Source: an uncultured Gammaproteobacteria bacterium
GTDB taxonomy: Bacteria > Pseudomonadota > Gammaproteobacteria > Enterobacterales > Psychrobiaceae
NCBI GenBank assembly: GCA_913060565.1
Contig: CAJXRU010000015.1
Location: 1 to 50,305 of the forward strand
Direction of reading: 5' to 3'
Length of the DNA stretch: 50,305 nt
Positions 40,172 through 43,127 of the stretch are shown here, one piece after another. A model generated the notes under the pieces. The model searched no databases and was not told where the DNA came from. It saw only the letters and a program-made list of their open reading frames with translations. A program made the translations under genes and the position numbers. The stretch's first letter is position 1. Each line of letters begins with the position of its first letter.

Positions 40172-41407
40172 CTAGTTAATTAATGTACTGGTAATTGAAA
40201 GGTTGCCGTGTAGCGTTTTGTGTACCGGACATTTGTCGGCAATTTCCATTAAACGCTGACGCTGAGCATCAGTTAAATCGCCTTTTAGTGATATCTCACG
40301 AGATATCACTTCGAGTAATTGTGGCTTTTCGTCTTCACAGTCTTGGCAATCTTTGACATGGCTACGACTGTGAGACAAGGTGACTGATACGTCATCTAAC
40401 GGTAATTTTTTGCGATTGGCGTACATGCGAATTGTCATTGAGGTACAAGCGCCAACGCTGGCGAGTAATTGCTCATAGGGATCAGGTCCTAAATTATCAC
40501 CGCCAAAATCTAATGGCTCATCACTAAGCCAATAGTGATTGTCACTGTGAATGTCTCGCGTGAATTGTTTATTACGCTCGTTAACCATTACATGGCCGCG
40601 TGGCACAGCAGACTCTTGAGCAGAGGTACTGAATTGCTCTGCGGGTAAATAACGGGTTGCCCAAGTCGCTATTGTAGTGGCAACATACTCAGCGTCATCT
40701 TTATTCGTTAATAAGTGATCGGCATTGTCTAAGGTAACGAAGGATTTCGGGTGTTTCGCCTGACGATAAATTTTCTCGGCTTCGTTAATTGATACCGTCT
40801 GATCCATTGGCGAATGGAAAATCAATAGCGCCTTTTTAAGCGATGAAATATGGTCAGAATCTTGGTCTCGCAAATCATCTAAAAACTGTTTTTTAATCAC
40901 AAAAGGACGACCTGCTAAGTTAACGTCTGCCTGACCGTGTTCGTCGATCTCATCAACGTGGACAGCGAAGTTTTTAATAACATGCTCTGCGTTGCTTGGT
41001 GCGGCAATAGTTACAACACCCAAGGCTTCTGGTACGTGTTGTGCGGCTTTTAACACGGCGGCGCCACCAAGACTATGACCGACTAAAATACTCGGGGCTT
41101 GATATTCATTTCGCAGAAAATCAGCCGCTGACACGAGATCGGCAATATTTGACGAGAAGTTAGTATTGGAGAAATCACCATCGCTGTTACCAAGGCCGGT
41201 AAAATCAAAACGCAATACGCCAAAACCTCGGGCTACAAGTGCGCGTGCAATGCGTGATGCCGCCGCAATGTCTTTGCCACAGGTAAAACAGTGGGCAAAT
41301 AATACAAAAGCAGTTGGTGAAGTGCTTGGTAATTCTAATAAGCCATTAAGCTGTAAATTTTGCTCACTGGCGGCAGCGGGAAATTGAACCTTGATACGCT
41401 TGCTCAT
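40172..41407 (-). CDS. Fusion of alpha/beta hydrolase and OsmC peroxidase
   Basis: A 411-residue cytoplasmic protein with two domains. Residues about 20-255 are an alpha/beta hydrolase (nucleophile S112 in GHSLGG; His in NADHLL). Residues about 270-405 are an OsmC/YhfA domain with C321 (VGACTSM) and C393 (KCPVHK), the pair used to reduce organic hydroperoxides with thiols. An extra CQDCED motif at 354-358 is present. This fusion is known in proteobacteria. AGGAT precedes the ATG. It is first gene of its operon, and a MITE-like repeat begins 27 bp upstream. Confidence 0.88.
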
Positions 41408-41433
41408 CGATACATCCTATCTGGTCTGATAAA

Positions 41434-41595
41434 ATACCAATTGCAATAACTCTTTGCTCATTTTTCACGATCTAAATGGATGATAATTTCGTAATTTATT
41501 TCTTAAATAGAACAACTATTTATTAAAATAAATGCCTTATTCTAATCCATTTATCTACGTTACAAAATTGATCACATAATTAATACAATTGGTAT
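41434..41595. repeat. MITE-like long imperfect palindrome with terminal ATACCAATTG repeats
   Basis: A 162-bp non-coding element bounded by perfect 10-bp inverted repeats, ATACCAATTG (41434-41443) and CAATTGGTAT (41586-41595). The arms are partly complementary along their whole length: TAAATGGAT near 41473 pairs with ATCCATTTA near 41545, and the centre is AAATAG-AACAA-CTATTT (41505-41521). It could fold as one long hairpin. From memory, similar ATACCAATT-bounded repeats are common between genes in marine Alteromonadales. Confidence 0.75.
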
Positions 41596-41648
41596 GAGTT
41601 AATAAAGACCCTAACATGGACAAAATGTATTCGTCATTGTGTAATTAA

Positions 41649-41686
41649 AATCATGCCGCGGCTTAGCGCATTTCCGCAGCATGATT
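41649..41686 (-). terminator. Hairpin terminator after the esterase-TPR gene
   Basis: AATCATGC-C-GCGG pairs with CCGC-A-GCATGATT (12 of 13 bp), 12-nt loop; the minus strand continues TTTTAATTA. It lies 13 bp past the stop. Confidence 0.8.
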
Positions 41687-41698
41687 GAAGACTTACAT

Positions 41699-42964
41699 TT
41701 AAGAGGACTTCTTTGCTACTCGCGTTTTAAAGTCATTGAGCATTTGAGTGAAAAACTCAAACCGAGGATCTTTTAATCGTTTAGCGATACCAACCGCTTG
41801 CAAGTGAGCTGCTAGCGCTAAATCGTCTTTACCAACGCTTTCATATGCATCAGCCAAGCTATCAAATGCATTGGCTTCATTGGGGCTAAGTTTGGTCCAG
41901 CGCTTGAATATGTCGATAGCCTCTACATTTCGCTCTTGTCCCAACAAGTTGTAACCAATACCCCTAAAGCTGTTCACATTGCGTTGAAGATCAGGCTCTG
42001 GATAAATACGGTAGCCATATTTTTTAGACAAATCGGCATAGTAATCATCGATCTTACTTAGCGCATTGCCTTTTTCCTTGGTGATATTTCTAAATTGGGC
42101 TAATTCGTCGTTAGGAAATGAAAACTTGATGGCTGATAGTAGCCCTGGAATTGCCATTGGGTAATGTTTAAATCCAGCAATGTGTTCGATCTTTGATTTA
42201 AAGTTTTTACTGTTGAATGGCGCTAAACGCTTTTTAAGTTCGGCAGCATTAGTGGCTTGATTAGGGTTATCATCGCCATCACTCAGCGCTGATGAAATAT
42301 ATAGGTAGCCTTTGCGATTTGGATTATTACGCAAATGGTTGACCAAGGTGTCGATAAAGTCAGTTTCTTTATCATAACCTAAGCTAAAGATATCAATCGC
42401 GGCAAATAGATAGTGTGCATTAAAAAGATCGGGTTCATTAATTAGCGTATGCAGTGCCATAATAGCAGACGGCGACATGCCAATGAGTACGCGAAAATCG
42501 TTGGTACGGTAGTTTTTATCAATATAAGGCACTAATTCATCGCGCATAAATGCCATGTATTCGTCAATTTTATTTGGCGTGTTACCAAGGTTCCACTCAG
42601 AATCTTTTACTTCTACTTTCGGCAAGTAGCGCCAAATATTAGGTGTGTGTAGTGCTACGACAATAGATTTAGGCATTGCCGCTGTATTGCTTAGATGACT
42701 AACAACACCGTTCACGCCCTGAGAAAGTGTCCAGCCATCCAATGTATACACCACCGGATAACGTACATTTTCTCCCGTTTTTTCATATCCCTTAGGTAAG
42801 TAAACATCGATAACATGGTCACGTTTGAGCGCTTGTGAGGTGAGGGTGATTTTTTTACCGTAAGTTAATGGCTCAGAAACAGCCTTGGTTATGCTAGCCA
42901 TGGTTTGACTACTAAAACTTAAAACAGCCGTCATGGCTATGCCTAAATAAAAGTGTTTTAACAT
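41699..42964 (-). CDS. Exported esterase (esterase D/PF00756 family) with C-terminal TPR
   Basis: With the ATG at 42964 the protein has 421 residues. A signal peptide (AMTAVLSFSSQTMA) is followed by a putative esterase domain (about 25-290: PVVYTLDGWTL; nucleophile serine in IGMSPSA; His in GFKHYPM) and a helical tail with TPR-like units (YNLLGQERNVEAIDIFKRW; SLADAYESVGKDDLALAAH). Family members include enterochelin/ferri-siderophore esterases and S-formylglutathione hydrolase; substrate here is unknown. AAAGGAAA precedes the chosen start; 31 further in-frame upstream codons would disrupt the signal peptide. A strong inverted repeat lies just upstream. Confidence 0.82.
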   Translation of the reverse strand: MLKHFYLGIAMTAVLSFSSQTMASITKAVSEPLTYGKKITLTSQALKRDHVIDVYLPKGYEKTGENVRYPVVYTLDGWTLSQGVNGVVSHLSNTAAMPKSIVVALHTPNIWRYLPKVEVKDSEWNLGNTPNKIDEYMAFMRDELVPYIDKNYRTNDFRVLIGMSPSAIMALHTLINEPDLFNAHYLFAAIDIFSLGYDKETDFIDTLVNHLRNNPNRKGYLYISSALSDGDDNPNQATNAAELKKRLAPFNSKNFKSKIEHIAGFKHYPMAIPGLLSAIKFSFPNDELAQFRNITKEKGNALSKIDDYYADLSKKYGYRIYPEPDLQRNVNSFRGIGYNLLGQERNVEAIDIFKRWTKLSPNEANAFDSLADAYESVGKDDLALAAHLQAVGIAKRLKDPRFEFFTQMLNDFKTRVAKKSS

Positions 42965-42980
42965 GAGATTTCCTTTTGTG

Positions 42981-43010
42981 AATTTATAGTTCGCAGCGAT
43001 ACTATAAATT
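42981..43010 (-). promoter_or_regulatory. Inverted repeat upstream of the esterase gene
   Basis: AATTTATAGT and ACTATAAATT are perfect 10-bp arms; the 10-bp centre TCGCAGCGAT adds TCGC-A-GCGA, giving a nearly continuous 30-bp palindrome. It ends 17 bp before the ATG, so it is an operator or a 5'-UTR hairpin. Confidence 0.65.
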
Positions 43011-43127
43011 TGTATGTTAAAACACCTGACGATGAGCTGATTTTTTACTGATTTCATGCTGAATCAATGGTTTAGTAATGATATGGTGTGATGACTACAT
43101 GAGGGATATGAAAGAGATAATTAGGCG

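Follow-up and report, generated by a model that had tools for sequence, protein, structure and literature searches.

A palindrome before a hydrolase-OsmC gene is probably a copy of a protein-free, IS630-driven MITE family of marine bacteria

The 162-bp palindrome that lies just upstream of a three-gene unit in the window (the whole 50,305-nucleotide stretch of DNA analysed here) is, with a probability that we put at about 93%, a copy of a widespread, protein-free MITE family of marine bacteria driven by an IS630-type transposase. An IS630-family transposase (Tc1/mariner-type, DDE) made elsewhere would bind ends of the form ATACCAAT..., excise the element and reinsert it into a T-N-A triplet, TAA or TTA in almost every case, and the triplet is then found duplicated on either side of the insert, as the flanks across the family demonstrate. 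In the window, read-through from upstream would give the unit a 5' leader that contains a long hairpin, leaving the region just before the ATG outside it. The analysis thereby supplies a repeat family, a likely driver and a target rule, with elements in 90 of the 295 genomes sampled from the order.

Features of the element and its surroundings in the window.
Feature	Coordinates	Strand	Remarks	Basis
MITE copy	41434..41595	minus	162 bp including the outermost A/T; transposed unit probably 41435-41594	
Terminal inverted repeat ATACCAATTG	41434..41443	+	end nearest the hydrolase-OsmC start	sequence; similar ends on IS630-family elements
Terminal inverted repeat CAATTGGTAT	41586..41595	+	end nearest the esterase gene	sequence
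Flanking triplet AAA	41432..41434	+	partner TGA at 41595-41597	sequence compared with family flanks
Alpha/beta hydrolase fused to an OsmC domain	40172..41407	minus	downstream gene in family orientation; first of a tight three-gene unit	
Putative esterase	41699..43057	minus	upstream gene in family orientation	

A preliminary description of the window had reported an element with perfect 10-bp terminal inverted repeats and partly complementary arms, and the sequence is as described: the outer 32 bp of the arms are 78% complementary and the 162 bp form an imperfect palindrome. It had also called the element non-coding, in agreement with which no ORF of at least 80 aa among the window ORFs overlaps it. 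Its placement immediately before the hydrolase-OsmC start was right as to position but off by one in distance, as 26 bp, not 27, separate the element edge at 41434 from the first base of the ATG, at 41407 on the minus strand. Downstream of the fusion gene, the unit continues with a glyoxalase-family gene and then a 2-hydroxyacid dehydrogenase gene. In family orientation the window copy lies on the minus strand, codirectional with both neighbouring genes; it scores 154.4 bits on that strand and 51.6 bits on the plus strand against the family covariance model, being itself one of the 26 copies behind the model. Folding, one of the checks proposed earlier, gave -43.5 kcal/mol (z -6.7) for the minus strand of the element alone and -31.5 kcal/mol (z -5.0) for the plus strand, with none of 200 shuffles equalling either value, so the element folds far beyond chance on both strands. 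Because the family duplicates a 3-bp target, the transposed unit is probably the 160 bp TACC...GGTA, without the outermost bases.

We counted copies at increasing phylogenetic distance. BLASTN against the element's own assembly (4.35 Mb, 215 contigs) found five places, namely four copies, three of them besides the window copy at 75%, 72% and 73% identity to it, and one 31-bp stretch. That stretch (G000:C162:139-169, in L005), although 90% identical to the element, covers only about 30 bp within an apparent cold-shock-type frame, and we set it aside as a copy and as probably a chance match. Among relatives, 11 of 39 genomes (own genome included) had matches, including eight of the nine genomes of the genus. 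A covariance model of the family, trained on 26 copies, then matched the 90 genomes mentioned above, which fall in 18 of 99 genera, and at least nine copies in the element's own genome, where all nine scored candidates were positive; up to nine candidates were scored per genome. In named genomes, the core pattern occurred in at least 117 stretches, those listed coming from Colwellia, Cognaticolwellia, Pseudocolwellia, Thalassotalea, Litorilituus, Psychrobium and unclassified records; in viral contigs it had no exact match. After removal of repeats and cut-off copies, the 154 full-length matches left 139 distinct copies. The copy count that the preliminary description had called for thus turned up multiple copies at unrelated loci of the same genome and more in relatives, and the outcome that it had named as contrary, a single copy at a conserved locus with no empty site, is not what we observed, several copies being present elsewhere.

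Flanks of the copies carry a target duplication. For 138 of the 139 distinct copies we compared the left 3-mer, taken to end in the element's first base, with the right 3-mer. The two were identical in 105 of the 138 full-length copies (TAA in 59, TTA in 43, TGA in two and TCA in one), whereas 2000 shuffles of the flank pairings gave 52 on average and never more than 71. The search for target-site duplications was therefore positive at the family level but negative for the window copy, which is flanked by AAA and TGA and has no intact 3-bp duplication, against the TAA or TTA of most copies in the family. Its duplication has either decayed or was never perfect.

Further traces of insertion came from a nested element and from an empty site. 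The element of L051 is interrupted by another copy, and L008 is an uninterrupted paralogue. Between the two, the left flank runs up to 1623 and the right flank begins at 1621, a three-base overlap obtained with the right flank extended across four unaligned bases; the right-hand triplet of the nested copy is altered. Empty sites, which the preliminary description had also suggested looking for, were found at the L164 locus but not for the window insertion. At L164 (nine loci aligned of 12 fetched), the element is present in Colwellia sp. 75C3 and in isolate DT_22, both with TAA on either side, and is missing from the other seven loci, whose joined flanks are 85.8-95.0% identical across the junction and gap-free in five; one of these empty loci, L311, reads CAA. 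In light of the duplications, the nested copy in L051 and the filled and empty L164 loci, sequence comparison establishes insertion for the family. For the window insertion, relatives yielded no empty site because the only congeneric orthologue's contig ends just upstream; one of eight other genomes of the genus has the hydrolase-OsmC gene. L017, used as a further empty-site probe, also gave none, one flank being 68-70% identical to relatives and the other unmatched as a whole.

A candidate driver is found in relatives. Congeners and Colwellia hold nine IS630-family elements, 927-1116 bp long, whose ends resemble those of the MITE (L132, which is the element of L116, L133, L134, L136, L138, L141, L262, L263 and L265). 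At both start and end they carry a motif like ATACCAAT-N3-ATTAA, often with TGATC further in. Against the MITE consensus, 16 of the 18 ends match at no fewer than 16 of the 25 positions scored, a comparison that is partly circular because the nine elements were chosen partly by their end motif; one end of L134 is poor, at 12 of 25. For comparison, 211 ATACC sites in other loci with IS630 matches had a median of 11, and 13 reached 16, some of these lying in loci that overlap the nine elements. A domain scan of the two transposase halves, which covered L116 only among the nine, found that the second half exceeds the cut-offs of PF13358 (DDE_3) and NF033545 (IS630), while the first half matches helix-turn-helix families and scores 95.9 bits for NF033545 against a cut-off of 100. 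Several of the nine elements are broken by stops or split frames, and identical flanking 3-mers occur in five of the eight IS copies with both flanks.

Because IS630-family elements in congeners and Colwellia bear such similar ends, an IS630 transposase acting in trans is the likely mover. Mobilisation in trans had been proposed before any search, and the copies, the target duplications, the L164 empty site and the similar ends on IS630 elements all point to it. In the element's own assembly of 215 contigs there were three matches to the family (best E 1.9e-11), and none to the DDE half of the L116 transposase at E 1e-20; since all three fall below the family cut-off, the driver is known from relatives only. 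The window copy looks old, because its ends are intact, its duplication has decayed and no full-length driver was found in its own assembly. A 2-bp TA duplication is described for IS630-type elements and ERIC-like MITEs (PMC6267812), whereas the duplication of the marine family reads as 3-bp T-N-A. A TA target combined with a one-base asymmetry of the ends reproduces the letters of TAA and TTA, but not the two TGA cases and the one TCA case. If confirmed, the 3-bp duplication would represent a variation in how IS630 elements treat their target.

Two further arrangements were seen. In L116 (G008:C90, about 1548-2957), the IS630 element adjoins, and perhaps lies inside, another IS630 transposase gene. 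In G005, the contig ends L084-L090 and L106 hold a multi-copy element with a similar end, ATACCAATTCCGTTAATTTTGTGATC, followed by an ORF start reading MTQTISQLI; its left flanks are T-N-A in the seven contig ends inspected of the eight, and its body was not found in the stretches examined.

Among known repeats, the family most closely resembles ERIC/MITEPlu5 as described, and appears to be a new family of a known kind. ERIC, MITEPlu5 and MITEEc1 of enterobacteria are likewise short and non-coding, with strong secondary structure over their full length and ends resembling those of a subset of IS630-type transposons (PMC6267812); copy numbers and effects of ERIC are described in PMC10969869. The marine family differs in its ends, which read ATACCAAT... 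and are not of the CCC subtype, setting it apart from ERIC by description; in length, the window element having 162 bp and MITEPlu5 123 bp (PMC6267812); in the target noted above; and in its hosts, marine Colwellia-like genera rather than enterobacteria. The pneumococcal RUP is similar in that IS630-Spn1 has been proposed, from shared ends, to mobilise it in trans, but it has 107 bp and a TA target (both from PMC2229807; compared by description). Correia/NEMIS elements of Neisseria, according to that source, come in two sizes, the longer of which has about 50 bp more in its interior, whereas the marine family has modules at two internal sites, found together in L061; this comparison, too, is by description. 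Our search of open-access titles and abstract openings, with ISfinder and subscription journals outside its scope, found no description of the family, and a text search for the end sequence gave, among the matches listed, no title on bacterial repeats.

We also examined where copies lie relative to genes, using 120 of the 139 copies. None of the 120 is inside a predicted ORF of at least 70 aa. With 18 set apart at locus edges, the 102 classed copies comprise 37 between convergent genes, 32 tandem sense, 25 tandem antisense and 8 between divergent genes. Of the 113 copies covered (from the 139), 43 have a terminator-like hairpin within 70 nt, compared with 131 of 765 intergenic TTA/TAA controls, which were unmatched for gene arrangement. 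This bias in context is consistent with the loss of harmful insertions, with a target preference or with the two combined. By eye, the elements of L003, L020, L028, L055, L084 and L086 sit shortly after a terminator-like hairpin.

Could the palindrome instead be native to this locus, a non-mobile cis-regulatory feature of the operon? Its position just upstream of the unit would suit such a role, as would the lack of an intact duplication and of an empty site of its own, but copies at unrelated loci in its own genome and across the order, together with the family's duplications and the L164 empty site, reduce this idea to a near-negligible probability. A mobile element might still supply or alter the hydrolase-OsmC promoter, through the junction of TTGGTAT with the flank, which is extended -10-like. 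The element end stands only 26 bp from the ATG, where the minus-strand junction reads TGGTATTTT. Of 134 right ends, 37 bear an outward-facing TGGTATwwT (w, A or T), as do 26 of 134 left ends; these are raw counts that come without a control. Against this, a consensus scan of 41350-41760 found no sigma-70-type site on the operon (minus) strand and a single one on the plus strand, with 2.2 expected by chance, and copies between divergent genes are rare (8 of 102). We consider such a promoter effect unlikely. The preliminary description had raised an embedded promoter for the three-gene unit, and the scan speaks against it, the sole site being on the opposite strand. No terminator was found on the operon strand near the window copy, and as the scan was empty on that strand we rejected an embedded promoter or terminator serving the operon.

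A different possibility, also raised in the preliminary description, is that the family is a structured RNA, either a leader or a small RNA, whose minus-strand transcript is under selection and which is mobile by chance. Several observations seem to favour it. Across the alignment of 26 copies, 96.7% of cells are paired, both sides have changed in 22 of 41 pairs, and covariation is 0.351, compared with 0.149 when shuffled and at most 0.080 when slid. The family strand, minus in the window, folds better in 21 of 23 clusters, with a composition-controlled mean z of -6.2 versus -5.0 (Wilcoxon p 0.0017 over 23 clusters that are related to one another; the clustering used 118 of the 139 copies). 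When pairs are chosen by Watson-Crick pairing, G-T outnumbers A-C by 58 to 20, against a ratio of about 1.2 predicted from composition alone, and optional modules occupy fixed sites, some folding as small hairpins. The wobble excess, however, need not imply RNA selection, because the same types of change are at least as skewed in unpaired columns (137:75) as in paired ones (95:71). In a wobble-neutral alignment of the arms, 95 G-T stand against 76 A-C, which does not exceed the ratio of 1.34-1.42 that composition predicts; by cluster the count is 16 to 6 towards G-T (p 0.052). A count of 57 G-T to 10 A-C over 23 clusters was rejected as a sign of strand-specific RNA selection, since a structure drawn for the family strand favours G-T by construction.

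Other evidence also weighs against an RNA. Tandem copies show little preference for sense over antisense to their neighbours (32 versus 25). Searched against Rfam, the whole window gave nothing at gathering scores, nor did 41380-41720 at E up to 1, so the window element is without a match; six loci holding variant elements gave three matches, none of them on an element. Template-switch correction of palindromes can also produce covariation between arms. Because the copies are related and template switching can homogenise palindromes, we take the covariation as maintained pairing and leave its cause aside. Selection at the RNA level did not survive the controls and we leave it as unproven; the structured-RNA explanation as a whole strikes us as quite unlikely. 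For the mobile family that we favour, covariation across copies and the filled and empty Colwellia sites together offer a natural test of the effects of a hairpin on its neighbours.

Copies also vary in internal structure. In 11 loci of relatives, about 45 extra bases are present at model position about 56-61; a twelfth insert there in the output was a reverse-strand reading of L010 and was left out. A second module of about 45 bp, at model position about 109-112, was found in two loci by script and in L022 and L046 by eye, and the element in L061 has both modules. One or two small hairpins form in some of the inserts, and several fold weakly or not at all. Other related elements share the ends but not the centre, and L012 and L047 hold forms of about 70 bp reduced to the outer stem. 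A more ambitious picture would have mobile hairpins across the order exchanging cassettes at two fixed internal sites and swapping their central hairpin, with pairing selected for the fold and with an IS630 branch that shifted from TA to 3-bp T-N-A; we regard it as speculative and improbable.

In several copies, among them those of L033, L051 and L061, the module near model position 57 has a hairpin around ACATCC. The complement of one module form, ACATCCATGT, resembles the CsrA-binding consensus. This module could be an inserted REP-like unit. The module near position 110 (L010, L022, L061 and L046) has a hairpin with the loop AGGAC in L010 and L061. Finally, beside the MITE copy in L017 (G008:C26) lies another repeat family, at L017:2660-2924, which occurs at more than 20 places in G008.
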